In this document: piece by piece, positions 1 to 16,119 of the stretch
Position numbering within the stretch: position 1 is the stretch's first letter
Layout of the letters: every line of letters starts with the position of its first letter
Assembly (NCBI GenBank): GCA_016763255.1
Contig: JAESUA010000249.1
Span: 1-20,610, forward strand
Reading direction: 5' to 3'
Source of the DNA: Magnetovibrio sp.
Lineage (GTDB): Bacteria; Pseudomonadota; Alphaproteobacteria; Rhodospirillales; Magnetovibrionaceae
DNA: 20,610 bases
Translations under genes and position numbers: made by a program
Notes under the pieces: generated by a model
Seen by the model: the letters and a program-made list of their open reading frames with translations, nothing else
What the model was told of the DNA's origin: nothing
Database searches by the model: none

Positions 1-417
1 GGCATCTACGGCGGCATCGTCATGGTCGTCGGCCTGCTGGGCCTGTGGGTGCGCCGTGTGGTGCAAGAACGCATTCGCTACATTTCCGGTCCGTCCGACC
101 ATCTGATGCTGGCGCTGCTGGTGTTGATCGGGGCTTCCGGCCTCAACATGAAGTTTTTAACCCACACCGACATCATTCAGGTGAAGGCCTATTTCTTAGG
201 CTTGATGCGCTTCAACATCCAAGATTTGCCGACCGATGGCGCACTGTTGATCCATCTAGGAGCGGTTGTTGCTTTGATGATTGTTTTTCCGTTCAGCAAG
301 CTTTTGCATGTGCCGGGGGTGTTTTTCAGCCCCGCCCGCAACCAGGTTGATGACGCACGTGACAAACGCCATTTGGCACCATGGGCAGCGCCCATGGACG
401 CCGATCGCGAAGCCTGA
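1..417 (+). CDS. dsrM: DsrM, cytochrome b subunit of the Dsr membrane complex (3' part only)
   Basis: The reading frame is open from the first base of the window and ends in TGA at 415-417, giving the last 138 residues; the start lies upstream of the window. Three hydrophobic segments are visible: residues about 2-20, about 40-58 and about 80-98. The last contains a His-Leu-Gly start and a Phe-Ser-Lys-Leu-Leu-His end, as in NarI-like dihaem cytochrome b proteins. A polar cytoplasmic tail rich in Asp/Arg follows. In the family, DsrM binds haem b and exchanges electrons between menaquinone/ubiquinone and DsrK at the inner membrane. The identification depends mainly on position: dsrK begins 13 bp downstream, and the order M-K-L-J-O-P is that of known dsr operons. 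Without the N-terminal half, another NarI-like subunit cannot be excluded from sequence alone, but the context makes DsrM by far the best call. Confidence 0.88.
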   Translation, partial: GIYGGIVMVVGLLGLWVRRVVQERIRYISGPSDHLMLALLVLIGASGLNMKFLTHTDIIQVKAYFLGLMRFNIQDLPTDGALLIHLGAVVALMIVFPFSKLLHVPGVFFSPARNQVDDARDKRHLAPWAAPMDADREA

Positions 418-429
418 GGAGTTTAGATC

Positions 430-1926
<1,497 letters not shown>

Positions 1927-1938
1927 ACAAATCGGTCG

Positions 1939-2006
1939 CGCGGGATCAACCCCGCCACCCCATGCACCTAACAGGGCATCATCACAGAGGGGCAAAAAGC
2001 CCCCTT
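1939..2006 (+). other. Two small intercistronic hairpins between dsrK and dsrL
   Basis: The 99-bp gap between dsrK and dsrL can form two hairpins. The first pairs GCGGG (1940-1944) with CCCGC (1951-1955) around a 6-nt loop. The second pairs GGGGC (1989-1993) with GCCCC (1999-2003) around an AAAAA loop. No T-tract follows either, so they do not look like intrinsic terminators. The second ends just before the dsrL ribosome-binding site (GAGGAAGGA, 2009-2017). They could be mRNA processing or stability elements, which is inference. Confidence 0.4.
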
Positions 2007-2025
2007 GCGAGGAAGGAAGACAAAA

Positions 2026-3972
2026 ATGACTGCGGAACAGGCTTTAAATTGGCGTCGTTACACAGACGGTGAAGAAAAATGGGATGACCTCCAGGAGGAC
2101 ATCTTCAATGCCAGCTGGACGCACAAGTGCCCGACCTACGTTCACCGCACCCCGCCGTGTCAGGGTTCATGCCCGTCCGGTCACGATATCCGTGGTTGGT
2201 TGGCCATTGCGCGCGGCATGGAAAAGCCCCCGGTTGAAGGCATGGAATGGCAGGAATATGCGTTCCAACGCATGGTCGAAGCCAACCCCTTCCCGTCGGT
2301 CATGGGCCGTGTCTGCCCGGCACCGTGCGAAGACGGCTGTAACCGTAACGAAGTCGACGACCAAGTCGGCATCAACGGCGTTGAGCAGCATGTCGGCGAT
2401 TACGCCATCGAACACAAGCTGACCCTGCCCAAGCCGGAAGTAGAAACCGGCAAAAAGATCGCCGTCATCGGTGGCGGTCCGGGTGGTCTGGCCGCAGCTT
2501 GGCAAATGCGCCGCAAGGGTCACTCCGTCACGGTGTTTGAAAAGCAAGACAAGCTCGGCGGCATGATGGCCTTCGGCATCCCCGGTTACCGCGTTCCGCG
2601 CGACATCCTCGACGCTGAAATTCAGCGCATCCTGGACACCGGTGTGGAAGCCAAGACCGGCGTGACCATCGGCAAAGACGTCACCGTCGAACAGCTCGAA
2701 GCCGATTATGATGCAATCTTCTGGGCGGTTGGCGCACAGAAGGGCCGCGGCTTGTTCCTCGACAGCTGGGAAGGCACCGAAAACTGCATCACCGGCGTGG
2801 CCTTCTTGGAAGCCTTCAACCAAGGTCGTTTGCACTACACCACCAAAAAAGTGGTCGTGGTCGGTGGTGGTGATACCTCCATCGATGTGGCATCGGTTGC
2901 GCGTCGTTTGGGTCACATCACCTCCATGGCGGACAAAGATCGTCCCGAGGCGATTGTCCTCGGCTACACCGCACACGACGTGGCGTCTTCGGCCCAGCGT
3001 GAAGGCGTTGAGTCGGTGCTGACCTCTTTGTTCCCGCTTGAGGGCATGACCGCATCCGAACGTGAGCGCGACGACGCGACCCGCGAAGGTGTGGAAATCA
3101 AAGGCGGCGTGATGCCGGTCGACATCATCAAAGATGCCAACGGCCGCGCCACCGCATTGCGCATGTGCGAATGCACCATGGACGGCATGACCCCGGTCCC
3201 CGTCGAAGGCACCGAGTTCGATATCGAATGTGATTTGATCGTTTCGGCGATCGGTCAGATGGGTGACTTGGCGGGTGGCCTTGAAACTCTCGACAACGGT
3301 AAGGGCTTCATCGACACCAACGCCGTCTATCAGGTCAAAGGCGAAGGCAAAGAAAAGCATTTTGCCGGCGGTGATGTTATCCGCCCGCATTTGCTGACCA
3401 CCGCCATCGGCCACGGCTCGATCGCCGCGCAAAGCATCGATCACATGCTGGCTGGCTCACCCGATGAACGTCGCCCCAAGGTTGATGTGCATCACTTCAA
3501 ATTGCTTGAAGAACTGAGCCTGCGCGACAAGTCCCCGACATCATTTGAAAATGCCCCGACCCGTGGCACCGACAGCGATAGTTTCGCTGTTCACAACTAT
3601 GAAGATCGTTCGGCATCTCAAATCATCCCGCATGGCGACCTGTTCTTGGGCCACTACACCCATGACGCGGTCACCAAGCGCGATGAAAAGCACATCGATG
3701 CCGATAAGGTTCTCGGCAACTTCGAAGAACGCCTGATCGGCTTCAGTGCTGAACAAGCGAGCCACGAAGGCGAGCGCTGCATGAGCTGCGGCATGTGTTT
3801 TGAGTGCGACAACTGCGTGATTTTCTGCCCGCAAGACGCCGTCTTCCGCGTCAAGCGCGACGACATGACCGTTGGCCGCTACGTCGATACCGACTATCAA
3901 AAATGCATCGGTTGCCACATCTGCCGTGATGTTTGCCCAACCGGCTACATTCAGATGGGCCTCGGTGAATAA
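2026..3972 (+). CDS. dsrL: DsrL, NAD(P)H:acceptor iron-sulfur flavoprotein
   Basis: This 648-residue cytoplasmic oxidoreductase resembles the glutamate synthase small subunit with an added ferredoxin domain. The N-terminal cysteines C35, C45, C49, C97, C101 and C105 sit where the family binds FeS clusters. An FAD-binding GxGxxG motif is at about 145-158 (IGGGPGG) and an NAD(P)-binding one at about 276-289 (VGGGDTS). The C-terminus carries two ferredoxin motifs: C591-C594-C597-C601-P and C627-C630-C633-C637-P, preceded by an extra CxxC pair (C585, C588). In sulfur oxidisers DsrL is known to couple sulfite reductase to NAD(P)H. The ATG at 2026 was chosen over an in-frame TTG at 2005 because a good ribosome-binding site (GAGGAAGGA) lies 8-16 nt before it. 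Its presence in the cluster favours an oxidative or bidirectional Dsr pathway. Confidence 0.95.
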   Translation: MTAEQALNWRRYTDGEEKWDDLQEDIFNASWTHKCPTYVHRTPPCQGSCPSGHDIRGWLAIARGMEKPPVEGMEWQEYAFQRMVEANPFPSVMGRVCPAPCEDGCNRNEVDDQVGINGVEQHVGDYAIEHKLTLPKPEVETGKKIAVIGGGPGGLAAAWQMRRKGHSVTVFEKQDKLGGMMAFGIPGYRVPRDILDAEIQRILDTGVEAKTGVTIGKDVTVEQLEADYDAIFWAVGAQKGRGLFLDSWEGTENCITGVAFLEAFNQGRLHYTTKKVVVVGGGDTSIDVASVARRLGHITSMADKDRPEAIVLGYTAHDVASSAQREGVESVLTSLFPLEGMTASERERDDATREGVEIKGGVMPVDIIKDANGRATALRMCECTMDGMTPVPVEGTEFDIECDLIVSAIGQMGDLAGGLETLDNGKGFIDTNAVYQVKGEGKEKHFAGGDVIRPHLLTTAIGHGSIAAQSIDHMLAGSPDERRPKVDVHHFKLLEELSLRDKSPTSFENAPTRGTDSDSFAVHNYEDRSASQIIPHGDLFLGHYTHDAVTKRDEKHIDADKVLGNFEERLIGFSAEQASHEGERCMSCGMCFECDNCVIFCPQDAVFRVKRDDMTVGRYVDTDYQKCIGCHICRDVCPTGYIQMGLGE

Positions 3973-4019
3973 TCGGACCGCCTAGGGACTATAGCCCCTC
4001 ACTTAAGGAGGAACGTCGA

Positions 4020-4553
4020 ATGCGTTCGGCTTCTCGAATTTTGAGCCTCACAATATTGGGGTTTGCCATTGTCATCATGGGTTTAGGGAGTGGCCTCAGC
4101 GCCGCTCCCGCCCAGGCTGGCGAAGTGCCATTGCCAAACCCGGCCAAGGCCTTCAAGGGCGAGCAATGCGTTGAACCCATCGATGTGATGCGCCGTGACC
4201 ATTTTGAGTTTCTCAAACACCAGCGCGATGAAACGCTACGCGAAGGGATCCGCGGAAAAAAGTATAGCTTGAACGCGTGCATCGACTGCCACGCGGTGAC
4301 GTCCCCGGACATCGCCGGTGGTAAGCTGCGCACGCTCAAGCCATTTTGCGCGGAGTGCCACTCTTACGCTGCCGTTTCCATCGACTGCTTTGAATGCCAC
4401 AGCGGCGCGGTCCAACCGGGCATTGGTTCTGAGATTGGCAAGCAATCCGCCCTACCCCCAAATCACGAACAGCTCAAGGCCGACAAAGCCCTGATTACGC
4501 TGCTCAAAGGTCATCTCGACCCCACATCTCCTCAAGGGGGGACAGGTCAATGA
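4020..4553 (+). CDS. dsrJ: DsrJ, periplasmic triheme cytochrome c
   Basis: This is a 177-residue secreted cytochrome. Residues 1-33 form a signal peptide: an Arg-containing n-region, a hydrophobic stretch at 7-29, and an AQA end consistent with cleavage after A33. Family members often keep it as an uncleaved anchor. Three covalent haem sites are present: CIDCH at 87-91, CAECH at 110-114 and CFECH at 123-127. C50 lies before the haem motifs. In Allochromatium DsrJ a conserved non-motif cysteine is an axial ligand giving unusual His/Cys haem ligation, and C50 is the natural candidate here, by position only. An AAGGAGG ribosome-binding site lies 8 nt upstream. The stop overlaps the dsrO start as ATGA, so the two periplasmic subunits are translationally coupled. 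Confidence 0.94.
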   Translation: MRSASRILSLTILGFAIVIMGLGSGLSAAPAQAGEVPLPNPAKAFKGEQCVEPIDVMRRDHFEFLKHQRDETLREGIRGKKYSLNACIDCHAVTSPDIAGGKLRTLKPFCAECHSYAAVSIDCFECHSGAVQPGIGSEIGKQSALPPNHEQLKADKALITLLKGHLDPTSPQGGTGQ

Positions 4554-5326
4554 CGGACAAAACCATGAACACCGTTGATAGCTCCCCCGTAGACGCAACC
4601 AAGCGGACCCTCTTGAAGGGTGGCGTTGCGGCTGCTGTGATCACCCTTGCACCGGGCATCACCCTGCGCACTGTTGAAGCCGCCGTGACCGGACCGGCCA
4701 CCCAAGCCAAGCGCTGGGGCATGCTGATCGACGCCACCGCCCCCGAAGGGGTGTGGGACCTGGCGGTTGAGGCCTGCAAAGCCGAACAAGGCTGGGGATC
4801 TGACCACAACAAATCCGGCAAAGCCAATGCCGCCACGGACCCACAGTGGATCCGTAAGGTTTCCATCAAAAACCCCAAGACCGGTGCCAAAGCCAGTCTG
4901 CCGGTGATGTGCCAGCACTGCGCCAACCCACCGTGCGTCGATGTCTGCCCGACCGGCGCTTCGATGAAGCGTGAAGACGGCATCGTGCTGGTCGACAAAC
5001 ACATCTGCATCGGTTGTCGCTATTGCATGATGGCGTGCCCGTATTCAGCCCGTTCGTTTGTGCATGAGCCGGTTGAAATGCAAAAGCCGCATATGCCGCG
5101 CGGCAAGGGCACCGTCGAAGGCTGCACCATGTGCGTGCACCGCGTCGACAAAGGTCAACAACCGGCCTGTGTCGAGGCCCTGAACAAGGCTGGCTCCGAC
5201 GCCATCATGTTCGGTGACCTCAACGATCCGAAATCCGATATCTCGCGTGCTGTTTCCAAGTACGTCACCCAACGCATCCGTGCCGACCTTGGGGTCGAGC
5301 CCGGCGTCCATTACCGGGGGATTTAA
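4550..5326 (+). CDS. dsrO: DsrO, periplasmic ferredoxin-like subunit with a Tat-type signal
   Basis: This 258-residue NrfC/DmsB-type iron-sulfur protein carries cysteine groups C121-C124-C129-C133, C153-C156-C159-C163 and C192-C195-C207. Of the usual first cluster only C76 (EACKAEQ) remains; as far as I recall, DsrO proteins generally lack the other ligands of that cluster. The N-terminus has a Tat-like signal with TKRTLLK at 17-23 followed by a hydrophobic stretch to about residue 38. The normal twin arginine is Lys-Arg here. In the family, DsrO mediates electron transfer between DsrJ and the membrane subunit DsrP in the periplasm. The gene overlaps dsrJ by 4 nt and is followed by dsrP after a 4-nt gap. 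Confidence 0.94.
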   Translation: MTDKTMNTVDSSPVDATKRTLLKGGVAAAVITLAPGITLRTVEAAVTGPATQAKRWGMLIDATAPEGVWDLAVEACKAEQGWGSDHNKSGKANAATDPQWIRKVSIKNPKTGAKASLPVMCQHCANPPCVDVCPTGASMKREDGIVLVDKHICIGCRYCMMACPYSARSFVHEPVEMQKPHMPRGKGTVEGCTMCVHRVDKGQQPACVEALNKAGSDAIMFGDLNDPKSDISRAVSKYVTQRIRADLGVEPGVHYRGI

Positions 5327-5330
5327 GGCA

Positions 5331-6551
5331 ATGGCTGCTGATACGACCATTTACAAAGAAATCGAAGGCAAAGGCGGCGATTATTATTCGCTCGTCGGTT
5401 GGCTGGCCGTGATGGCTGCGGCCGGTTTTGGCTCCATGCTCTACATGGAACATTACGGCCACGTGGTGACCGGCATGACCAACGCCGTTGTCTGGGGCAC
5501 ACCGCACGTATTTGCCGTGTTCTTGATTGTCGCCGCTTCCGGTGCCTTGAACATCGCTTCGATCTCATCCGTGTTTGGCAAGACCCAATACAAGCCATTG
5601 GCGCGCCTTTCGACCATCACCGCGGTGGCGTTGCTGGCCGGTGGACTGATGGTATTGTTGCTGGATCTGGGCCGCCCTGATCGTTTGATCGTGGCGATGA
5701 CCAAATACAACTTCAAATCTATCTTTGCCTGGAACATCATTCTTTATTCTGGATTTTTCGTCATCGTACTGACGTATCTGTGGATGATGATGGAACGGCG
5801 CATGGTGCCATATTCCAAAAAAATGGGTTTACTGGCCTTTGTTTGGCGCTTGGCCCTGACCACCGGTACCGGCTCGATCTTCGGCTTTTTGGTGGCCCGC
5901 CCGGGTTACGACGCCGCGATCATGGCGCCGATGTTCATCGCCATGTCGTTTGCCTTTGGTTTGGCGATCTTTATCTTGGTCGTTAACGTCGCTTACCGTG
6001 CAAGCAATCGTCCATTGGGTGATTTTATCTTGTTCGAGATGCGCAACCTGTTAGGGGTGTTCATCGCCGCCGCGCTGTATTTCACCGTGACCCAGCATCT
6101 GACCAACCTCTACGCCGCAGAACATGCCGGCATCGAAGCCTTTATCTTGTGGGACGGTGGCATCTACACCTTCTTCTTCTGGGTGGTGCAGATCGGCCTG
6201 GGCGCGTTATTCCCGTTGGCGTTGTTGTTCAACCCGGCCACCGGTCGCAGCTGTCAAGGCATCATGATCGCATCAATTTTGGTGATCGTCGGTGGGTTGG
6301 CCCAGTTGTACATCATCATCATTGGCGGCCAGGCCTTCCCGATCCCGCTGTTTCCGGGCATGGAAGTGTCTTCAAGCTTCTTTGACGGTGCCGTGCACCC
6401 TTATGTGCCAAGCTTACTGGAAATCCTTCTCGGCCTGTCGGGTATGGCGGTGTCCCTGCTGATCATCGCCATTGCGGTTAAGTACCTGCCATTGATGCCG
6501 ACCAGCCTGTCGGATGCGAAGGTTGATCCAAACCATGTAGCCGCCGAATAG
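5331..6551 (+). CDS. dsrP: DsrP, NrfD-family integral membrane quinone-interacting subunit
   Basis: This 406-residue polytopic membrane protein has about ten hydrophobic segments, for example at about 21-39, 57-79, 95-111, 131-153, 166-187, 199-221, 239-256, 276-300, 311-331 and 363-384. It matches the NrfD/PsrC/HybB family by length and spacing. DsrP exchanges electrons between the quinone pool and the periplasmic DsrO/DsrJ side. The ATG at 5331 begins 4 nt after the dsrO stop. Longer in-frame starts would run deep into dsrO and lack a ribosome-binding site. GGGGG at 5316-5320 is the only purine-rich stretch nearby, so translation probably depends on coupling to dsrO. It is the last gene before the tandem terminators. 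Confidence 0.94.
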   Translation: MAADTTIYKEIEGKGGDYYSLVGWLAVMAAAGFGSMLYMEHYGHVVTGMTNAVVWGTPHVFAVFLIVAASGALNIASISSVFGKTQYKPLARLSTITAVALLAGGLMVLLLDLGRPDRLIVAMTKYNFKSIFAWNIILYSGFFVIVLTYLWMMMERRMVPYSKKMGLLAFVWRLALTTGTGSIFGFLVARPGYDAAIMAPMFIAMSFAFGLAIFILVVNVAYRASNRPLGDFILFEMRNLLGVFIAAALYFTVTQHLTNLYAAEHAGIEAFILWDGGIYTFFFWVVQIGLGALFPLALLFNPATGRSCQGIMIASILVIVGGLAQLYIIIIGGQAFPIPLFPGMEVSSSFFDGAVHPYVPSLLEILLGLSGMAVSLLIIAIAVKYLPLMPTSLSDAKVDPNHVAAE

Positions 6552-6576
6552 GTCGCTACAGACTAACGTTCACCAA

Positions 6577-6607
6577 TCATTTGCGGGGAGGCAAATGACT
6601 GGTTTTT
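6577..6607 (+). terminator. First hairpin downstream of dsrP
   Basis: A perfect 8-bp stem pairs TCATTTGC (6577-6584) with GCAAATGA (6591-6598) around a GGGGAG loop. Four nucleotides later there is a run of five T (6603-6607). It works on paper as an intrinsic terminator, although the stem is A+T-rich. Confidence 0.5.
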
Positions 6608-6609
6608 CG

Positions 6610-6649
6610 GGGGGGTCCGGGCCATAGTGCCGGGGTCCCCTTCGTTTTT
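6610..6649 (+). terminator. Intrinsic terminator of the dsr operon
   Basis: An 11-nt G-rich arm (6610-6620) pairs with 6630-6640 across a 9-nt loop, with one G-G mismatch and two G-T pairs. A TTCGTTTTT tail follows (6641-6649). With the hairpin immediately upstream it forms a tandem terminator separating dsrMKLJOP from the sirohaem unit. Confidence 0.75.
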
Positions 6650-6652
6650 CAG

Positions 6653-6669
6653 TCTCAACCGTTCTGAGA
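6653..6669. promoter_or_regulatory. Small dyad upstream of the TrpD2-like gene
   Basis: TCTCA (6653-6657) and TGAGA (6665-6669) form a 5-7-5 inverted repeat in the short gap between the dsr terminator and the next gene. It could be an operator half-site pair or chance. No confident -10/-35 pair was recognised in this gap. Confidence 0.2.
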
Positions 6670-6691
6670 TGTTATCGTGGGGGGTGACACA

Positions 6692-6718
6692 ATGAAGATG
6701 GATATCAAAACAATATGA
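6692..6718 (+). CDS. Possible 8-codon leader peptide
   Basis: ATG at 6692 opens a frame of eight codons (M-K-M-D-I-K-T-I). Its TGA at 6716-6718 overlaps the ATG of the following gene in an ATGA arrangement. A G-rich stretch with a GGGGGTGA core lies 5-12 nt before it and is a better ribosome-binding site than anything next to the downstream ATG. It may serve to load ribosomes for the downstream gene by translational coupling. This is inferred from layout only; a peptide this short cannot be judged by composition. Confidence 0.3.
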   Translation: MKMDIKTI

Positions 6719-7719
6719 GTACCGAACACCCCTTTGCCCAATACATCCGCATCATCGGCCGTGGCCCCAACCTGTCACGCCCGCTGGATGAAGAAGAAAT
6801 GTACGAAGCCGCGCAGTTGATCATGTCGGGCGATGTCGAACCGCTGCAACTGGGTGCTTTCTTGTGCATCCTGCGCATGCGCACCGAGGTACCGGGCGAA
6901 GGCGCAGGTTTTGTGCGCGCCGCCCGTGCGACCTATAGCGTGCCACAAGATGCCCCATCCGTGGATCTCGATTGGGCATCGTATTCGGGCAAAAAACGCC
7001 AACTTCCGTGGTATTTGTTATCCGCCCTTTTGCTGGCCCAAAACGGCATCACCATCTGCATGCAGGGCACCGACACCCACACCCCGGGACGGCTTTATTC
7101 CAGCGAAGCGCTCCCCGCCTTGGGCATTCCCCTAGCCGGATCGCTTGAAGAAGCCGCAGACCAGATCAAGGCCACCAATTTTGCCTATCTGCCGCTGCGC
7201 AACTTCGTGCCGCGGCTGCAAGACATCATCGAATTGAAACCGATCCTCGGCGTGCGCTCCCCGGTCAACACCTTTGCACGGATGCTCAACCCGTTCGATG
7301 CTCCGCACGAAATTCAGACCGTATTTCACACCGCATATCGTGATGTCCACCGCGACACCGCCGATATGCTGGGCCAAAAACATATGGCGGTGTTTAAGGG
7401 TGAAGGCGGCGAAGCCGAACGCCGCCCGCACAAACCAGTGGTGGTGCAGTATCTGCACGACGGTGTGCAGTCCGAAGAGGTATGGCCCGCTATTGTCGGC
7501 GATGATGCTTTTTACAAAGATGAGGTTCTCGACGTTTCGCGCTTGCCCAAAATTTGGAATGGCGATGAAACCGATGCATATGGCGAAGCCGCAATCATCG
7601 GCACCGCAGCTTATGTTTTGCGCCTGATGAGCCGCGCGAAAAACCCTGAGGACGCCGTCGATCAAGCCCGCAATCTATGGAACACGCGCAACCGCGCGCA
7701 AATGTTCCAAGCCGCTTAG
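6715..7719 (+). CDS. TrpD2/YbiB-like protein (anthranilate phosphoribosyltransferase fold, non-catalytic type)
   Basis: This 334-residue protein has the glycosyltransferase-family-3 layout: a helical N-terminal domain (about 5-75) and an alpha/beta domain. The motifs that make TrpD an enzyme are replaced. Where TrpD has its glycine-rich GTGGD loop this protein has SYSGKKRQ (about 89-96), and where TrpD has KHGNR it has CMQGTD (115-120). The later segments LGVRSPVNTFARMLNP (178-193) and FKGEGGEAERRP (227-238) keep the family pattern. Loss of the catalytic loops is typical of the TrpD2 (E. coli YbiB) family, described as nucleic-acid-binding rather than as a tryptophan enzyme. It precedes dsrN by 14 bp, so they are probably co-transcribed. 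No role in sulfur metabolism is established that I know of; the link here is context. The start is supported by the ATGA overlap with the short leader ORF. Confidence 0.8.
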   Translation: MSTEHPFAQYIRIIGRGPNLSRPLDEEEMYEAAQLIMSGDVEPLQLGAFLCILRMRTEVPGEGAGFVRAARATYSVPQDAPSVDLDWASYSGKKRQLPWYLLSALLLAQNGITICMQGTDTHTPGRLYSSEALPALGIPLAGSLEEAADQIKATNFAYLPLRNFVPRLQDIIELKPILGVRSPVNTFARMLNPFDAPHEIQTVFHTAYRDVHRDTADMLGQKHMAVFKGEGGEAERRPHKPVVVQYLHDGVQSEEVWPAIVGDDAFYKDEVLDVSRLPKIWNGDETDAYGEAAIIGTAAYVLRLMSRAKNPEDAVDQARNLWNTRNRAQMFQAA

Positions 7720-7733
7720 ACCGGATTATATAT

Positions 7734-9155
7734 ATGGGCCACTTTCTTATATCCGCCGCACATAAGTCTTCGGGCAAAACCATGGTTAGCACCGGGCTGA
7801 TCCGGGCTTTGAGCTTGCGCGGACGAACCGTCGCGGCGTTTAAAAAAGGCCCCGACTATATTGACCCCAAATGGTTGGGAGAAGCCGCAGGACGACCTTG
7901 TCTCAACTTGGATTTTCACACTCAATCTAATGATGAGATCAAAACCCTGTTTGCCCAACATGCCAGTCAAGTCGACATCGCCATCATCGAAGGCAACAAG
8001 GGTCTGCATGACGGGGTGAATGTGGACGGCAGCAATTCCAACGCTGCACTGGCCAAAATGTTGGGCACACCGGTGATTTTGGTGGTCGATGTTTCGGGCA
8101 TCACGCGCGGCATCGCTCCGCTGCTAAAAGGCTACGAGGTGTTCGACCCTGAGGTCAACATCGCCGGTGTGATCCTCAACAAGGTGATGGGTCCGCGCCA
8201 TGAAGAAAAACTCATCGCCGCAGTTGAACGTTACACCAACATTCCGGTTCTTGGCGCAATCCGCCGCAATGCAAAATTAGGAGTCGATGAACGCCACATC
8301 GGCTTGATCCCCAGCAATGAGTTTCCAGCCGCACGTGCACGCATCGAAACCCTGGCCGAGCAAATCACCGAACAAGTCGATCTCGATAGAATCGAAGCCA
8401 TTGCGGCAACAGCCCCCGCCCTACCGGCCATCCGAACCGTCACCAGTGAAGGCGTGCGCCCCAACGTGCGCATCGCCATCGCCAAGGATGCGGCCTTCGG
8501 TTTTTATTACGCTGACGATCTCGAGGCCCTGAAACGTGCCGGTGCACAGCTGGTATATTTCAATGCCTTGAAAGACGTCTACCTGCCAACCTGTGACGGC
8601 TTGTTTTTGGGTGGCGGCTTCCCGGAAACCCAAATGAAGAGGCTCGACGCCAATAAGAGCCTGAGAAACCGTATCAAAGCCGCCATCGAAGCAGGCCTGC
8701 CGACCTATGCCGAATGCGGCGGATTGATGTATCTCACCCGCTCCATCTCCTGGCACGAAGACCGCCATCAGATGGTTGGGGTGATTCCCGCAGACGCCAC
8801 CATGCATGCCCGGCCCCAGGGCAAGGGCTATGTGCAACTGTACCCCACGGACGACCATCCATGGAACACCACCCAAGAATCCTGCACGTTCGAAGGCGAT
8901 TACATCCCGGCCCACGAATTCCATCATTCGCGTCTTGAAAACATTGATGGTGAATTCACATACGCGTTCAAGGTTCTACGCGGGCAAGGCGTTGATGGCA
9001 GCGGGGACGGCATCGTGATGCACAACATGGTCGCCGGTTACGCCCATTTGCGCGACACCAGCCGCTGCCGTTGGGCCAAAGCCTTCACGGCCTTTGTGCG
9101 ACAGAAAAAACAAGAAAGAAACGGTGCCGCATCACCGGCCCAAATCGCCGGTTGA
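7734..9155 (+). CDS. dsrN: DsrN, sirohaem amidase (CbiA/cobyrinate a,c-diamide synthase-like)
   Basis: This 473-residue glutamine-dependent amidase has an ATP-binding N-terminal domain with a P-loop-like AAHKSSGKT at 8-16. It also has a C-terminal class I glutamine amidotransferase domain with the nucleophile C328 in YAECGGLMYL (325-334) and histidines H395/H398 and H438. CbiA amidates cobyrinic acid. In dsr clusters the homologue DsrN is required to make sirohaem amide, the prosthetic group of DsrAB. Context decides between the two: no cobalamin genes are present, and the dsr operon and sirohaem genes flank it. The ATG at 7734 puts the ATP-binding motif right at the N-terminus, as in the family; an upstream in-frame start would overlap the preceding gene. 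Its ribosome-binding site is weak. Confidence 0.9.
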   Translation: MGHFLISAAHKSSGKTMVSTGLIRALSLRGRTVAAFKKGPDYIDPKWLGEAAGRPCLNLDFHTQSNDEIKTLFAQHASQVDIAIIEGNKGLHDGVNVDGSNSNAALAKMLGTPVILVVDVSGITRGIAPLLKGYEVFDPEVNIAGVILNKVMGPRHEEKLIAAVERYTNIPVLGAIRRNAKLGVDERHIGLIPSNEFPAARARIETLAEQITEQVDLDRIEAIAATAPALPAIRTVTSEGVRPNVRIAIAKDAAFGFYYADDLEALKRAGAQLVYFNALKDVYLPTCDGLFLGGGFPETQMKRLDANKSLRNRIKAAIEAGLPTYAECGGLMYLTRSISWHEDRHQMVGVIPADATMHARPQGKGYVQLYPTDDHPWNTTQESCTFEGDYIPAHEFHHSRLENIDGEFTYAFKVLRGQGVDGSGDGIVMHNMVAGYAHLRDTSRCRWAKAFTAFVRQKKQERNGAASPAQIAG

Positions 9156-9182
9156 GACGCCGCAAAATTTAAGGATACGACA

Positions 9183-9995
9183 GTGAGCAAAACGAAGAAC
9201 AAAACGGATGATGCCAGCGTATTCATCGTCGGTGCGGGCCCCGGCGATCCGGGACTTTTGACCCTTAAGGCCGCCGCATGCCTGAAAAAAGCTGACGTAG
9301 TGGTTTATGATCGCTTGGTGTCCGACGATATCTTGGCCATGGTGCCCGACAGTGCGGAAAAAATATTCGCCGGCAAAGCCGCACGCGATCACTTTATGCC
9401 CCAAGATGAAATCAATCAAACCCTGGTGGATTTGGCGCGCCTCGACAAAATCGTGGTGCGGCTTAAGGGTGGCGATCCGTTTATTTTCGGTCGTGGCAGC
9501 GAAGAAGCCATGTTCCTGGCCGAACACGACATCAACTTTGAGATCGTACCGGGCATCACCGCCAGTGCCGGCTGCGGTGCCTATGCGGGCATTCCTTTGA
9601 CCCACCGCGGCCTTGTCACCGGGGTGCGCTTTGTCACCGGGCATTGCCGCGACGGTCAACACCTGGATCTCAACTGGAAAAGCATGGCCGACCCCAACAC
9701 CACCTTGGTGATCTATATGGGTTTGATCAACATCCAGAAAATTTCTGACGAGCTGATCAAGGCCGGCCTGCCCGCCGACACCCCCGCAGCGGGGATCGAG
9801 CGCGGCACCACGCCAGATCGACGCACCATCATCACCACCTTGGACAAACTGCCCGCCTGTATCGAACGCGCCGAGCTCAAAGCCCCATCGCTGTTGATCA
9901 TCGGCAAAGTGGTGGAACTGTCCGATACCATTGCCTGGCACACCCACGCCCATGAATGCCTGATGGAAGAGGATGGCGTCGCCACCGATGCCTAA
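9183..9995 (+). CDS. Uroporphyrinogen-III C-methyltransferase (SUMT)
   Basis: This 270-residue SAM-dependent methyltransferase converts uroporphyrinogen III to precorrin-2, the first step towards sirohaem. Hallmarks are GAGPGDPGLLT (17-27), VRLKGGDPFIFGRG (92-105), PGITASAG (123-130) and IYMGL (177-181). It is the stand-alone form (CobA/NirE/SumT length) without the CysG-A dehydrogenase/ferrochelatase domain. The start is GTG at 9183 with AAGGAT about 9 nt upstream. It lies 27 bp after dsrN and overlaps the next gene. Its place between dsrN and a CbiX-like gene indicates sirohaem rather than cobalamin supply. The symbol cobA or sumT would fit; none is given because usage is inconsistent. Confidence 0.93.
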   Translation: MSKTKNKTDDASVFIVGAGPGDPGLLTLKAAACLKKADVVVYDRLVSDDILAMVPDSAEKIFAGKAARDHFMPQDEINQTLVDLARLDKIVVRLKGGDPFIFGRGSEEAMFLAEHDINFEIVPGITASAGCGAYAGIPLTHRGLVTGVRFVTGHCRDGQHLDLNWKSMADPNTTLVIYMGLINIQKISDELIKAGLPADTPAAGIERGTTPDRRTIITTLDKLPACIERAELKAPSLLIIGKVVELSDTIAWHTHAHECLMEEDGVATDA

Positions 9996-10830
9996 TGACA
10001 AAGACACCGTTATGGATTTCAGCCACGCCGGTCTATTGATCGCAGCGCATGGTTCGACCAGTGCACCTGGCGGACGCACCTCGTCGCGCAAGCTTGCCGA
10101 TACCATCCGTGCGCTCGACCTGTTTGGCGATGTGCGCGCTGGTTTTTTGACTCAAAAACCGTTCGTCAAAAATGTCCTCGATGACATGAAAGTGGCGGAA
10201 GTTTTTGTGGTACCGAATTTGGCCTGTGCGGGTTACGTCAGCTCCATCAAGTTACCGACTGCCTTATACCTCACCGGTGCCGTGACGGAACGCATCTCGC
10301 CCAACGGCCGCCAACGGGTTTACCTCACCGATCCGGTCGGCACCGATCCGGCGCTGGGCAAAACCATGGCGATCCGCATTGGTGCGACCATGCAAAACCT
10401 ATCCATGCCGCCCCAGGACACCTGTGTGGTGGTGATCGGCCACGGCTCGCAAAAAACCCGTGAATCGTTTGAACACACCCAACGCATCACCGCAGACATT
10501 TCGCGCCAGGGCTTAGATGTTGAAATCATTACCGCTTATTTGGAAGAACAGCCCTTCATCAAAGATTGGCGTAACCTCACCAACGCCAAAAACGTGGTGT
10601 TCGCGCCGTTTTTGATCTCCGACGGCTATCACGGTTCCAACGAAATTCCTCAGCACATCGGATTCGATGCCAAGGCCGAAGACTTCATCGCCAAGCTCAG
10701 CAGTATCGAGCCCAACGAACTGATCAGTGATGGCCGCCGCCTAATCTATCTGCCGCCCATCGGCGATGCTCCGGAAATGGCCGAACTCATCTTGAAGCGC
10801 GTGCGCGCGGCCCAAGCCCAATCCGCTTAA
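9973..10830 (+). CDS. Two-lobed CbiX/SirB-type sirohydrochlorin chelatase-like protein
   Basis: This 285-residue protein contains two CbiX-type lobes in tandem. The N-lobe begins LLIAAHGST (21-29, H26) and the C-lobe begins VVVIGHGSQKTRESF (152-166, H157). The C-lobe keeps the second metal-site histidine in SDGYHGSNEIP (H220). The matching N-lobe stretch CAGYVSSIKLP has V89 at that place. One functional site is therefore expected, as in long CbiX/SirB chelatases, which insert Fe(II) (or Co(II)) into sirohydrochlorin. Together with the upstream methyltransferase and dsrN it completes most of a sirohaem-amide route. The start is uncertain: ATG 9973 overlaps the preceding gene by 23 bp; ATG 9988 and ATG 10012 are in-frame alternatives. 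The 3' end overlaps the convergent transporter gene by 44 bp. The exact metal or substrate is not determined by sequence. Confidence 0.8.
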   Translation: MASPPMPNDKDTVMDFSHAGLLIAAHGSTSAPGGRTSSRKLADTIRALDLFGDVRAGFLTQKPFVKNVLDDMKVAEVFVVPNLACAGYVSSIKLPTALYLTGAVTERISPNGRQRVYLTDPVGTDPALGKTMAIRIGATMQNLSMPPQDTCVVVIGHGSQKTRESFEHTQRITADISRQGLDVEIITAYLEEQPFIKDWRNLTNAKNVVFAPFLISDGYHGSNEIPQHIGFDAKAEDFIAKLSSIEPNELISDGRRLIYLPPIGDAPEMAELILKRVRAAQAQSA

Positions 10831-11912: not shown

Positions 11913-14900
11913 CTAGAGCTCTCGCCCCAGCGCCTTTGATAGTATCATATACAACTTTCCCATGTCTGACGATAAAAAAGTGTTCTCCAAGACGCCATCA
12001 TGGTCACGTTCACGCGCCTTATCCATCATGGAGCTGAATTCGCTAATATAACGCCCGACATAATCACGGAACTCACCATCTTCTTGATACACGGACTTAA
12101 TCGCTGACAGGGTATTTTTCTCTTTATATCCCAGCATCTTGCGAACAAAAATGCCCTTTTCGCCTTTGTTGAATCGACGCCAGTCGTCTTCGGTAATAGG
12201 CACCTCGACGGTACGTGCTAAGTCGACAGCAAGGGACTGTAATTTTTCGCTGATGAACGCGGAACGTCGCATAAAGTCTTCCACGTGGCCACGATCAAGA
12301 GTGGCATCAAGGTTTTGATTGAGGGCATTGGCCTTTTCCACCGCACTCAAAAGATCGCGCGTGCCTTGCTCAACCTTGGCGCTGGCACCATCCAGTTTCT
12401 GGCCCACGCTGTCGGTGGCACGCGTGAGTTCGGAGACGCCCTCACGCAGGGTTTTGTCCCAGGCCACCACCCGCGCCACGGACTGTTCGGTCACTGCGGC
12501 AACGTTTTTGCTTTGTTTGTCCAACGCATCGCCAAGTATTGCGGCGCCTTTTTCCGCACGGCCATACATGCGATTGAGTTCGCCCAACTGGCCCCTGGCC
12601 CGATCATGGGCGATGCTGAGGTGGTCGGTGACTTTTTCGGCGTCTTGCACAGAGTTTTTGGTTTGATGTTCCATCTGGTCGAGGAACACCCGAATTTTAT
12701 CGAGGCTGCCTTCGGTCAAGCGTGCCACATCATCGGTTCTACGATCCAGTGCGTCGCCCACCTGTCCCAACTTAGACAGCGCATCTTGCGACACCGCCAC
12801 CACTTCATGGCCTTGATGGCGCAGGGCATCCGCACTGCCTTCCAATTTGGCCGTAGCTTGGCTGGAGGCCGAACTGAGTTCGCCCAAATGTTGGCGCAAA
12901 TTTTCGCCTGCGGTGCCCAAATTGCGCACCGTATCATCGGACATGCGGTTCATTTCACCCGCAGAACGCTGGATTAAATCGTTAACGCGTTCCACCTCAC
13001 CCGCCGCACGTTCCGACGCCGCCCCCAAATCAGACGTTTGATGATGAAAGGCATTGGTCACCCGATCGATCAACTTGGCGGCTTTATCGACGGTTTGATT
13101 GACGCCATGAACTTCTTCATTCAGGCGCTCACCAACTTCACCCAATTTATTTGCGGCACGATCAGAGACCTCCATAAGCCCCGTTGCTTGGTTATGCATA
13201 TCATCCGAAAATGTGCGGATATGGTCCGACGCATGGGTGTAGGCATGGGTTAAGTCTTCGGAACGGCGCGATAATAAGCCACCAATATCTTCCAAGCGCT
13301 CACCAGCATGATCTAGGGCCACATCCAAATCCGTGGTGTGGCGGTGAAAGGTGTCGGAGATACCATTCAAGCGATCACCGGCGGCTTCGGAAACGCGGGC
13401 GGCTTCGGCTGCGCGTTCGGCCAAACGGCGGCTGATGCTTTCCAATTCACGTTCCGCACTTTCGGTGCGTTGCGCAACAACACGTTCGCTATCGCTCACG
13501 GCATCGGTGACCTGACGCACACGGGCCACCGAATCATCGGCCGTATTTTGCAGGCTGAATGCGCTTTCTTTGAGCTTTTCGCCGGTTTCAAGCAAGCGAT
13601 CCGTGGCTTGGTTCCCCAAATCATCCAATTCACGCGCGTGCTCTTTGATGTTTTCCCCCATCACATCAATGCGTTCAGCCGCTTGTTTGGAGGCATCGGT
13701 CAGACCTGCGGTTTGACGGTGCAGCGCGTCAGACACCAGCGAGATCAAGCGTGCGGCCCGATCCGAAGCCGAGCCCACTTCACGCGAACGTTCCATCAAG
13801 GCCGAGGTGGCCTTATCCACATCATCCACCGCCAAAGAGGTCACCCGCGATACGCTTTCGGTTTGGCCTTCCAGGGTCCGGCTGACGTTATCAAGACGAT
13901 CTGTGGCTTCATCGGAGCTTTCCATCAGATTGCTCAGGCTCTGGCGCACCGCATCGCCCAATTCACGCAGGCGGTTTTCGGCCCGATCCGAGACATCCTC
14001 CAGCACGTCCGTGCGATCGCTTAAGTCTTCAGATGCCTTGGTCACCAGTTTACCGGTGCGCGCCGCAACGTAGACCATATGCTCTGAACGTTTTTGCAGT
14101 TCATCACCGGCATCGGACAATTTACCGGTGGCGTTGTCTGCGACCCCCTCCAACACCCGGGTGCGGTCCTGTACGATATCGCCTAACTCAGAGATCGAAC
14201 CCACCGCATCAGCTGAAACCTCTTTGAAGTCATGAAGATGATTGCGGAAATTTTCTGTCACTTGGGCGGTGCGCTCGGACGAGGTGTTGAGCCCATCGAG
14301 GCCTTCTTTCATGGCGCGGGTTGAGATGGCGATGGAGCTGGCCCCAGAATGTGCACTGGCATGAATGCGCTGGGCACCTTCTTCCATGATGCGAGCGGCT
14401 TCGCCAAGCGCGCTCTGGGCATTGGCCGATACACCATCAAGTTCCGCCGATCCTCCTTGAAGACGGGCGGTCACCTCGTCAATACGTTCCAGGCTGTTCT
14501 GGGTCGCATCCTTGATGTTTTGTGTTTGCAGTTTGATCGCGTCACCGGCGTTCAAAACACGGGTTTCGGCATCGTCGCCTGCCACACCCAGCTCATCGGA
14601 GCGCGCTTGTAATGATTTGCCCACCGTTTCCACTTGATCCAGGGCTTTGGCGGAAATATGGCTCAAGTCCATCGAGGTTTTGCGCAACAATTCACGCACC
14701 TGGGCGGTATGGTCGGCAGCATTTTGCGAGGAGCCGACCAAGGATTTGGCTTCGGCTTGGAACGCTTCACCGGCGGCCTTCATACGCAGCGCAACCAAAT
14801 CGGACGCAGCCACCAACTCATGGGCTTGCTCACCCATGGTTTCGGACATCGATTTGACTTTAGCGGCGACGTTGTCGGCGGTGGAGTTCAGCGCGAGAGT

Positions 14901-16058
14901 CTGTTGGTGAAGATGTGATTCAACTTCCCGGGCATGGCTGGCGGCGTCCAATGCGGCACGTTCCAGGTCGGCTTGTTGACGACGCAATGCTTCTGCAATG
15001 CGGTCGGTTTGGGCTTCCATGCGGTCGCCACGTGCACCCATTTCCGCGCCCGCGCCAGCCAACAGTTCTGATCCGGTTTCAATGCGCTGCAGGGCTTCTT
15101 CTGTGGCGCCGTTCAGGGTGTTAATGCGATCACCAAGCATTTCGCCAATATTTTCAGCTCGCACCGATGTTTCGGTGGAAATACGCGCAAGATCTTCGGT
15201 GCGTTCATGGAACGTGTCCGCAACCTCATGGGCATGGCGCGAACTGTTATCGGCGGTGTCTGACAATTCCTGAATGCGGCGCTCTAAGACCTCGACCAAA
15301 TCTTCGGCCTTGGCGTTGGCGCGATCAGTGGCGGTGGCGATATCGTGGCCGCGACGGTGCAATATGTCGCTGACATCACGCGCGCGGGTTTCGGCTTTTT
15401 CCGAGACCACACGCAGATCTTCAGTTTCACGTGACAAAGCTTCGGCAACGGCGCGAGCGCGCAGATCGGCGTCTTCGGACACCCTTGAAAGTTCCATGGT
15501 GCGCTCGCGCACCTGGGTGGTGATGGCTTCGGCGCGATTATAGGCCTCATCCGAGGCCTTGGTCAGGTCTTTGGCCTGGCGCCGCAGACTGTCGGTGATT
15601 TCTTTGACCCGGCTTTGCGAACGATCCGACGGATAGGTCAGCTGTCGAATTTGCCAGCGCAAATGTGAGGTTTCGCCGCGCAGGCTATGACCACGTTCAA
15701 ACAACGCAATCACCATCCACAACAGCGCAACAGGTGTGAAGACCCCCGCCGCCAAACCACCCAGTTCGTGGGGCAGCAGCTCGAACAAAACGTCCCATCC
15801 GATATATTGGGCAATATAATTGTTGGTCAGCCACAGCCACCCGACGCTGGCCAAGATGCCGATGCCGGTGGCGAATTTATAGCGCAGATAAAATGGTTGG
15901 TGCCATTCGTCATAGTCTTGCGAAGCTGCAGCCTGCCGCTCGTCTTGGGCCCGGGACGCATCAAGGGACGCATCAAGGTCTGCGAAACCCTCGATATCAA
16001 GGATATCAAGCGCTCCCGATTTTTCACCCTTGCCTTGGCTGTGCGGATCTTTGACCAT
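11913..16058 (-). CDS. Giant membrane-anchored coiled-coil repeat protein (44 x 25-residue repeats), GPR/TipN-like
   Basis: About 1,381 residues from ATG 16058; a GTG at 16091 would add 11 residues, and neither start has a clear ribosome-binding site. In order: an acidic N-terminus (1-55); two membrane helices (about 62-78 and 102-120) with basic residues before the first and after the second, so both ends are cytoplasmic; 44 consecutive repeats (residues 151-1246), all 25 residues long except unit 19, which has 21; and a 135-residue tail (1247-1381). The whole protein lacks cysteine and the repeat region lacks proline. Each unit has hydrophobic residues near positions 1, 4, 8, 15 and 22, Thr/Ser near 12, Asp/Glu near 14, Ser near 19 and often Arg/Lys at 25, the pattern of a coiled coil with 7+7+11 periodicity. 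From memory, layout and tail resemble the Agrobacterium Growth Pole Ring protein and similar giant alphaproteobacterial polarity proteins. Function is inferred as a scaffold, not an enzyme. Confidence 0.85.
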   Translation of the reverse strand: MVKDPHSQGKGEKSGALDILDIEGFADLDASLDASRAQDERQAAASQDYDEWHQPFYLRYKFATGIGILASVGWLWLTNNYIAQYIGWDVLFELLPHELGGLAAGVFTPVALLWMVIALFERGHSLRGETSHLRWQIRQLTYPSDRSQSRVKEITDSLRRQAKDLTKASDEAYNRAEAITTQVRERTMELSRVSEDADLRARAVAEALSRETEDLRVVSEKAETRARDVSDILHRRGHDIATATDRANAKAEDLVEVLERRIQELSDTADNSSRHAHEVADTFHERTEDLARISTETSVRAENIGEMLGDRINTLNGATEEALQRIETGSELLAGAGAEMGARGDRMEAQTDRIAEALRRQQADLERAALDAASHAREVESHLHQQTLALNSTADNVAAKVKSMSETMGEQAHELVAASDLVALRMKAAGEAFQAEAKSLVGSSQNAADHTAQVRELLRKTSMDLSHISAKALDQVETVGKSLQARSDELGVAGDDAETRVLNAGDAIKLQTQNIKDATQNSLERIDEVTARLQGGSAELDGVSANAQSALGEAARIMEEGAQRIHASAHSGASSIAISTRAMKEGLDGLNTSSERTAQVTENFRNHLHDFKEVSADAVGSISELGDIVQDRTRVLEGVADNATGKLSDAGDELQKRSEHMVYVAARTGKLVTKASEDLSDRTDVLEDVSDRAENRLRELGDAVRQSLSNLMESSDEATDRLDNVSRTLEGQTESVSRVTSLAVDDVDKATSALMERSREVGSASDRAARLISLVSDALHRQTAGLTDASKQAAERIDVMGENIKEHARELDDLGNQATDRLLETGEKLKESAFSLQNTADDSVARVRQVTDAVSDSERVVAQRTESAERELESISRRLAERAAEAARVSEAAGDRLNGISDTFHRHTTDLDVALDHAGERLEDIGGLLSRRSEDLTHAYTHASDHIRTFSDDMHNQATGLMEVSDRAANKLGEVGERLNEEVHGVNQTVDKAAKLIDRVTNAFHHQTSDLGAASERAAGEVERVNDLIQRSAGEMNRMSDDTVRNLGTAGENLRQHLGELSSASSQATAKLEGSADALRHQGHEVVAVSQDALSKLGQVGDALDRRTDDVARLTEGSLDKIRVFLDQMEHQTKNSVQDAEKVTDHLSIAHDRARGQLGELNRMYGRAEKGAAILGDALDKQSKNVAAVTEQSVARVVAWDKTLREGVSELTRATDSVGQKLDGASAKVEQGTRDLLSAVEKANALNQNLDATLDRGHVEDFMRRSAFISEKLQSLAVDLARTVEVPITEDDWRRFNKGEKGIFVRKMLGYKEKNTLSAIKSVYQEDGEFRDYVGRYISEFSSMMDKARERDHDGVLENTFLSSDMGKLYMILSKALGREL
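12321..15608 (-). repeat. Protein-level tandem repeat, period 75 bp (25 codons), 44 units
   Basis: Counting through the translation gives 44 contiguous units totalling 1,096 residues with no linker: 43 units of 25 and one of 21 (14196-14258). The check closes exactly: 161 residues before, 1,096 in repeats and 135 after make 1,392 from the GTG. Units share a pattern, not nucleotide identity, so this is an old, diverged repeat rather than a recent DNA amplification. Confidence 0.9.
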
Positions 16059-16119
16059 GCCCCGTGCGTACCCCAGTAAGCGGACCCACACCTGCAGGCC
16101 CCAGTTCTAAGTGGCACAG

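Follow-up and report, generated by a model that had tools for sequence, protein, structure and literature searches.

What is a bacterial protein that is built mostly of a 25-residue repeat, and what might it do in the cell? The question is raised by a locus in Magnetovibrio sp. (contig JAESUA010000249.1; the whole stretch analysed, 20,610 nucleotides, is called the window here). The ORF occupies 11913..16091 of the minus strand, on which all features below lie, and encodes 1392 aa counted from the GTG at its start (16091). The ATG at 16058 (residue 12) is more likely to be the true start, as Met-Val-Lys/Thr is by our reading also found there in five same-genus relatives. Against four same-genus genomes dN/dS was ~0.1, with dS near saturation, which indicates a real gene. 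Homologues were found in 52 of the 60 genomes searched (own genome counted), and the upstream neighbors are TauE and Usp genes.

The rod (12321..15608, residues 162-1257) was delimited by autocorrelation, hydrophobic positions and a phase profile. It has 1096 aa (43 × 25 + 21), with a single Trp. A preliminary description, made from the DNA alone, had counted 44 contiguous units, 43 of 25 residues and one of 21, lacking Pro and Cys, and the translated ORF bore this out. The autocorrelation peak at 25 also survived shuffling: lags 25, 50, 75, 100 and 125 reached z values of 17-18.5 (z = 18 at lag 25), compared with a maximum of 4.3 at any lag in 1000 shuffles. The hydrophobic Fourier peak was at 3.57, or 25/7. 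A 25-phase profile that allowed free phase jumps was re-estimated on 18 homologues at greater distance (the starting profile had included the window); it scored 581 on the rod, versus a maximum of 9.9 among 100 shuffles. It placed a single phase change in the rod, with a shift of -4 between residues 144-609 and 611-1256. The sole 21-residue unit (14196..14258, residues 612-632), positioned by eye from the table of units, is preceded by 18 full units and followed by 25; most of 35 decoded homologues changed phase near this place.

Within each unit, the core positions step by 3, 4, 4, 3, 3, 4, 4. The proposed composition of one hendecad and two heptads held. The hendecad fits positions 15-25 better than the unit start, because position 18 is hydrophobic in 75% of the units and position 19 in 27%. 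Conservation along the rod was uneven. The most conserved part (15267..15566, residues 176-275, with 201-225 nearly invariant) had mean column entropies of 1.45, 0.87, 1.63 and 1.56 bits, compared with 2.04 overall (19 cluster representatives), and a second conserved site (13692..13766, residues 776-800) averaged 1.50 bits.

The repeat had first been described by itself, which missed a membrane hairpin before the rod and a conserved helical domain after it. The first predicted membrane helix (15801..15884, residues 70-97) is hydrophobic by reading and helical in the AlphaFold2 model (block pLDDT 62-89); its region aligns gap-free in 39 sequences. The second (15636..15773, residues 107-152; pLDDT 72-85, 56 at the end) is predicted to continue as a cytoplasmic helix and carries the motif LLPHE.GGLAAG..TP.ALLWMV, conserved in 39 sequences. 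A YPSD break (15624..15635, residues 153-156), whose Y and P do not vary among 39 sequences, interrupts the helix in the model at the hairpin/rod boundary. The C-terminal helical domain (11916..12281, residues 1271-1392), recognized by alignment, class search and model, is the family signature; it was modeled with a pLDDT of 83, and the rod helix continues into it. The rod itself was modeled as two helices of ~205 residues each, separated by an uninformative stretch near pLDDT 50. A breakup into helical bundles was not seen in this model, but it is of poor quality (mean pLDDT 62) and does not prove an unbroken helix of ~1,100 residues; a continuous 160-nm helix is an inference.

No Pfam or NCBIfam family passed its cut-off on the 1392-aa protein, in line with the earlier remark that no named domain is known for the 25-residue unit. 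ZorA (NF033914, 35.8 versus a 190-bit cut-off) and MCE (TIGR00996, 42.4 versus 140.5 bits) were rejected, both with their best stretch within the rod.

The C-domain placed the protein in a known family. By tblastn it matched Sinorhizobium meliloti CP090106.1 (E 6e-19, 95% covered, 36% identity over 116 aa), a record on which the C-domain profile scored 103 bits; records of Shinella and Sphingomonas were matched as well. The S. meliloti match is a 6270-bp gene (2089 aa) annotated 'kinesin'. Its neighbors are the petA group and an Hpt gene; an IS110 transposase gene stands between it and the genes for petA and cytochromes b and c1. Pfam reported 12 PF01442 stretches in its product. RgsE is described as a 2,089-aa protein with up to 10 apolipoprotein domains and two membrane helices, with distant homologues in Rhodospirillales (PMC7327166). 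The equal length and the apolipoprotein stretches identify the match as RgsE, and the window protein as a relative of RgsE/GPR, the Rhizobiales organizers of the growing pole, instead of the unknown protein implied earlier. Judged by its sequence, it is a relative with a predicted membrane anchor and not GPR itself, as we take PF01442 matches to characterize the branch rich in hendecads rather than the family as a whole. The RgsE N-terminus matched the N-profile of the Magnetovibrio family weakly (15 bits). GPR is reported to form a ring of six foci and to depend on its C-terminus (PMC8262873), which by analogy gives the ring suggested in the preliminary description a precedent in the family.

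The 25-residue rhythm is, as far as period typing tells, recurrent across the class, which is new here. It led in 83 of 98 typed class relatives, in 12 of them weakly (leading z < 6). The leader was chosen among four candidate periods, with lag 11 outside the contest, and lag 11 beat the leading lag in nine of these 12. From 112 other genomes with a C-domain match, 94 were typed and 18 were not, which left families f49, f68, f76, f94 and f105 unsampled.

Rod length in many close relatives is fixed to the residue. Of 74 distinct near relatives, the window protein among them, 41 had a span of exactly 1095 residues between anchors, at a median pairwise identity of 30%. These statistics cover proteins with an N-anchor of at least 115 bits and a C-domain of at least 165 bits, duplicates removed; 13 proteins had no N-anchor and, like truncated or weakly anchored rows, are not counted. 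In 28 of the remaining 33, the length difference was 7 or a multiple of 11, 25, 29 or 196, steps compatible with a rod of heptads and hendecads, and there was one misfit each of -1, -171, -189, +174 and +563. The rule was derived after the fact from relatives sharing ancestry, and about one integer in six fits multiples of 11, 25, 29 and 196 by chance; as large numbers are often sums of 7 and 11, only the excess of these multiples is informative. In expanded relatives a module of 196 aa (7 × 25 + 21) is repeated, and class-wide the distances between usable anchors ranged from about 414 to 2186. In a local offset test on the first 400 divergent pairs, offset 0 fitted best in 4349 of 4800 windows, followed by ±25. 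Both the leading period and the length steps support the proposal that the register is preserved as a heritable family trait. The expectation that homologue lengths would be multiples of 25 did not hold in general, identical length being the commonest case.

By analogy with its relatives, we consider it fairly likely that the protein is a membrane-tethered scaffold whose rods pack at the cell pole and mark or organize it in a TipN-like manner, without directing polar elongation. The hairpin of two predicted membrane helices would tether it to the inner membrane with the 44-unit rod in the cytoplasm; the helical C-domain follows the rod. At 3.571 residues per turn (hendecad, heptad, heptad), two chains could wind into a nearly straight coiled coil with a gentle left-handed twist, up to ~160 nm long. 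The fixed register would permit lateral packing of rods, as a cluster, patch or ring, at the pole, where hairpin-proximal units and the C-domain may recruit partners. The genome has MreB and the PopZ family, and for this reason the protein's role is probably to mark the pole rather than to drive GPR-like polar growth.

Alternatively, the rod could be a pure spacer, a tether or ruler holding the C-domain ~160 nm from the membrane, with lateral packing irrelevant. The 41 divergent relatives of identical rod length speak for it, fixed length with divergent sequence being a reported spacer signature (PMC5082667). However, length differs in the other 33, in some by +196, +588 or +784, and varies over the class range given above. 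SMC proteins in the same genomes are just as gap-free, so exact length alone is no proof of a ruler, and the two conserved stretches suggest binding along the rod. We regard a pure spacer as unlikely.

A polar cell-wall growth organizer exactly like that of the Rhizobiales would explain the homologous C-domain and the similar overall layout, but is rather improbable. MreB was found in 113 of 119 genomes searched, a set that took in one genome without a typed rod (G155); it was found in the window's own genome (partial, in a contig-limited draft) and in all five same-genus genomes searched. The PopZ family (PF10691) was found in 41 of 42 genomes, own genome included. Moreover, Rhodospirillales and Emcibacterales with an RgsE homologue are reported to have no other Rgs homologues found, and the same report cautions that these RgsE homologues may differ in role (PMC7327166).

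It is quite doubtful that the rod is a lipid-binding, apolipoprotein-like helix that lies flat against the inner membrane, shaping or recruiting lipids as proposed for GPR. GPR was classed as an apolipoprotein by its authors (PMC8262873), and ApoLp-III scored weakly here, with 23.8 bits where the cut-off is 36.3. Against this, PF01442 (Apolipoprotein A1/A4/E, cut-off 90 bits) had no match at E 0.001 in the Magnetovibrio protein, and none in the 25-type relative L154; the period is 25/7, not 22/6, and the apolar stripe takes ~7 of 25 positions and is rich in Leu, Val and Ala, in a rod that lacks Pro and has 1.3% aromatic residues. Finally, a chance low-complexity helix or an assembly artefact, suggested by biased composition and nothing more, is refuted by the autocorrelation (z 17-18.5), the profile score (581 versus 9.9), the dN/dS of ~0.1 and the homologues in 52 of 60 genomes.

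Rhizobiales are reported to lack MreBCD (PMC8546619), and RgsE and its kin from MreB-less bacteria have repeats of 11/22 residues that Pfam takes for 'apolipoprotein'. We tentatively raise the possibility that the 25-residue hendecad-heptad-heptad rod is ancestral to a class-wide pole-scaffold family, and that the Rhizobiales, losing MreB and gaining polar growth, re-tuned it from 25-residue units (3.57 residues per turn) to 22-residue units (3.67). GPR would then be 'apolipoprotein'-like by convergence, as a coiled coil with changed twist and not as a lipid carrier. The correspondence of apolipoprotein matches with MreB loss is not strict, since the mixed 11/22/25/29 rod of L147 passes the PF01442 cut-off (142 bits) and its genome (G292) has MreB. 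The other marginal 22-type, L247 (G177), has a partial MreB match, and MreB is lacking in three 25- or 29-type genomes (G038, G049 and G241).

An anonymous repeat thus becomes part of a defined relative of the pole organizers RgsE and GPR, and the family gains a readable rule of structure, in which the coiled-coil unit has 25 residues and rod length changes by preferred steps. This opens a direct test of GPR as a lipid-binding apolipoprotein versus a coiled-coil rod, and of whether a change in rod twist accompanies MreB loss and polar growth.

Among known long coiled coils, SMC arms are likewise conserved to the exact length in the same genomes. SMC carries ATPase heads, and in each of the six arms examined the best lag was 7, 14 or 21, with no 25-residue register (L185 was left out, as the longest ORF there did not align to SMC, at 20% identity). 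Scy and FilP, of Streptomyces polar growth, are by description also long coiled coils that depart from the heptad pattern, with hendecads and cores rich in Ala, but they have a DivIVA-like N-terminus and Scy is almost wholly hendecads (PMC9858780). TipN of Caulobacter crescentus, to which GPR is described as similar (PMC8546619), has 882 aa (PMC13170164), versus 1392 here. Closest are RgsE (SMc00190) and GPR (Atu1348), with a homologous C-domain, a rod that is very long, poor in Pro and predicted to be helical, and a membrane hairpin at the N-terminus, which is predicted both here and in PMC7327166. They differ in rod period (11/22 with a Fourier peak of 3.665 in RgsE, 25 with 3.57 in Magnetovibrio), PF01442 stretches (12 versus none), length (2089 versus 1392 aa), gene neighbors (Hpt/petA group versus TauE/Usp) and MreB, reported absent from Rhizobiales (PMC8546619) and present in the Magnetovibrio genome.

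The repeat lies in a minus-strand open reading frame (16091..11913) encoding 1392 residues, and occupies residues 162-1257 of the product, 1096 residues with neither proline nor cysteine. A preliminary description had counted 44 contiguous units in an exact 25-residue register. The reading of the frame and a unit layout set by eye (18 units of 25, one of 21, 25 of 25) agree with its coordinates and counts. The lag-25 peak also persists against shuffled sequence: BLOSUM autocorrelation of this rod gave peaks at lags 25, 50, 75, 100 and 125 (z 17-18.5), whereas no lag exceeded z = 4.3 in 1000 shuffles. In the Fourier spectrum, hydrophobicity peaked at 3.57, that is, 25/7. A 25-phase profile was first built with the window protein included and then re-estimated on 18 more distant homologues. 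It scored 581 on the rod, versus at most 9.9 in 100 shuffles, and showed one phase change only, of -4 residues. In the 21-residue unit, placed by eye at residues 612-632, three heptads replace the hendecad and two heptads. As a control for periodicity, six SMC arms taken from this genome and two related ones all had their best lag at 7, 14 or 21, with profile scores of 4 to 9. The 44-fold repeat is confirmed, and its interpretation as a continuous rod with a selected register is partly supported. Judged from its sequence, the gene is real, with a dN/dS of ~0.1 at a dS close to saturation.

Unit positions 1, 4, 8, 15, 18 and 22 are hydrophobic in 75-100%, and position 12 is Thr, Ala or Ser (hydrophobic in 43%). 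The core steps 3,4,4,3,3,4,4 correspond to one hendecad plus two heptads, as first proposed, but the placement has to be revised: because position 18 is more hydrophobic than position 19, the hendecad fits better at positions 15-25, where its core is Leu-(Ala/Val)-Ala. Heptads have 3.5 residues per turn and hendecads 3.667; the rod, with 3.571, falls between them, so that a gently left-handed coil is expected. With a rise of 0.15 nm per residue, the rod would be ~164 nm long. Hendecad packing can be accommodated, among other ways, by small core residues, chiefly Ala (PMC9858780).

N-terminal to the rod, the structure model predicts a membrane hairpin (helices at residues 70-97 and 107-152), and in the alignment an invariant Tyr-Pro (residues 153-154) stands between hairpin and rod. 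C-terminal to the rod is a domain conserved in the alignment (residues 1271-1392), which the model shows as a small bundle of helices continuous with the rod helix (pLDDT 83); Foldseek and VIA-align searches with the model gave no trustworthy fold match. The rod model (residues 67-666, mean pLDDT 62) consisted of two helices of ~205 residues each. The proposed continuous helix did not separate into bundles, but the stretch between the two helices, near pLDDT 50, is uninformative, and continuity is not proven.

Own genome included, full-length matches were found in 52 of the 60 genomes searched, and the C-terminal domain in 113 of 289 genomes sampled from the class. The nearest named genome found was Magnetovibrio blakemorei MV-1 (90% domain identity). 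In a plasmid collection, six records matched the domain. In a 3.7-Mb S. meliloti record, the match lies inside a gene of 6270 bp annotated as kinesin (2089 aa, 12 Pfam PF01442 stretches), with an IS110 transposase gene and then cytochrome c1, cytochrome b and petA downstream. The pole organiser RgsE (SMc00190) is described as having 2,089 aa, up to ten apolipoprotein domains and two membrane helices (PMC7327166). On these grounds, we take the S. meliloti protein to be RgsE, homologue of Agrobacterium GPR. At the level of sequence, homology of the C-terminal domain to RgsE is established, and the window protein is an RgsE/GPR relative with a 25-residue register. In the account of PMC7327166, distant RgsE homologues occur in Rhodospirillales and Emcibacterales, where homologues of other Rgs proteins were not found. 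A small Hpt-domain gene stands beside the family gene, in divergent orientation, in S. meliloti (L181:2102-2470) and Sphingomonas parapaucimobilis (L182:3649-3942). Shorter frames of ~317-519 aa (G005:C24, G007:C165, G033:C1:120699, G053:C10, G046:C2, G020:C25) match only the hairpin and, where the match goes on into the rod, no more than its first ~100 residues, with no C-terminal domain match among the matches listed.

Rod periods were typed by autocorrelation in 98 class proteins (the window protein, three from plasmid records and those from 94 genomes). The leading period was 25/50/75 in 83 (12 of them weak, leading z <6; in nine, lag 11, outside the typing, was higher still), 22/44/33 in seven, 29/58 in seven (L170, L176 and L179 among them) and 47 in one, which makes the 25-residue register a family trait. 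All four periods can be expressed as heptads plus hendecads; the 29-residue unit would be two hendecads and one heptad. RgsE (L181) is among the strong 22-type proteins (also L155, L178, L183, L272; Fourier 3.655-3.665). PF01442 was over the cut-off in L181, L183 and L147, and not in 25-type L154 or 29-type L170. In a C-domain tree (64 rows, L272 absent), the other four strong 22-type proteins formed one group (99/92) joining three 25-type rows (97/82), and six changes were needed for all rod types. With 121 columns, an arbitrary root and 21 of its 61 inner branches unresolved, this tree lets us only infer the direction 25 to 22. In the literature searched, which excludes most subscription journals, we saw no description of the register, the fixed rod length or the 25-to-22 change.

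From hairpin anchor to C-terminal domain, 57 rows measured exactly 1095 residues; they comprise 41 distinct sequences in 19 clusters at 50% identity, with a median pairwise identity of 30%. Of the distinct near relatives with good anchors (74, window protein included), 41 have this length. Another 28 had deviations that fit a heptad/hendecad rod by a rule drawn up post hoc (-7, +7, 11, 22, 44, 55, 66, 88, 110, 116, 121, 175, 196, 200, 220, 232, 588, 784), and five had deviations that did not (-1, -171, -189, +174, +563). MAFFT placed no gaps across 600 columns in 39 sequences, and local windows of divergent pairs had their best offset at 0 in 4349 of 4800. Reading the rod as a special ruler is weakened, because SMC in these genomes is equally gap-free outside its ends (54-79% identity, eight other aligned rows, one row dropped). 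In several expanded relatives, L030, L031, L033 and L035 among them, 196-residue modules (7 x 25 + 21) stand in tandem, with up to 89% identity in the best local windows; this suggests amplification within the rod, recent in L030 and L031. Modules in L052 and L154 have 200 residues. Across the 19 cluster representatives, mean entropy is 2.04 bits overall, 0.87 in the nearly invariant unit 201-225, 1.45-1.63 in its neighbours within residues 176 to 275, and 1.50 in unit 776-800; these low-entropy stretches are candidate binding sites.

Elsewhere, window 1-9155 holds an electron-transfer and cofactor gene cluster that looks like dsr sulfur metabolism: a C-terminal fragment with a DsrM match (119 bits, under the 300-bit cut-off), 4Fe-4S proteins, a pyridine-nucleotide/4Fe-4S oxidoreductase, an NrfD-like membrane protein, a glycosyltransferase-3 family protein and a CobB/CbiA-type amidotransferase. 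Frames 9132-10106 (minus strand, 324 aa) and 4020-4553 (plus strand, 177 aa) had no Pfam family at E 0.001.

In the proposed mechanism, the chains would form a parallel coiled coil, the rods would pack laterally in register, and the protein would be localised at the cell pole. PF10691, the PopZ family, was found in 41 of 42 genomes searched and, among 14 named controls, in Caulobacter vibrioides only. Of 119 genomes searched for MreB, 113 had it, including the own draft genome with a partial match. It was absent from all three strong-22-type genomes searched (G116, G215, G294), which count as one evolutionary case because all belong to family f88. Three genomes whose rods are 25- or 29-type and whose completeness is 92% or more (G038, G049, G241) had no MreB match at 1e-40, possibly through independent losses or assembly gaps; the source genome of the mixed-rod L147 has MreB. 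MreBCD is reported missing from Rhizobiales (PMC8546619). Because MreB and the PopZ family are present, we favour for the window lineage a scaffold that marks the pole, as TipN does, rather than an organiser of the growth pole. GPR itself forms a 200-nm ring of six foci and needs its C-terminus for function (PMC8262873), and it has been described as similar to TipN (PMC8546619).
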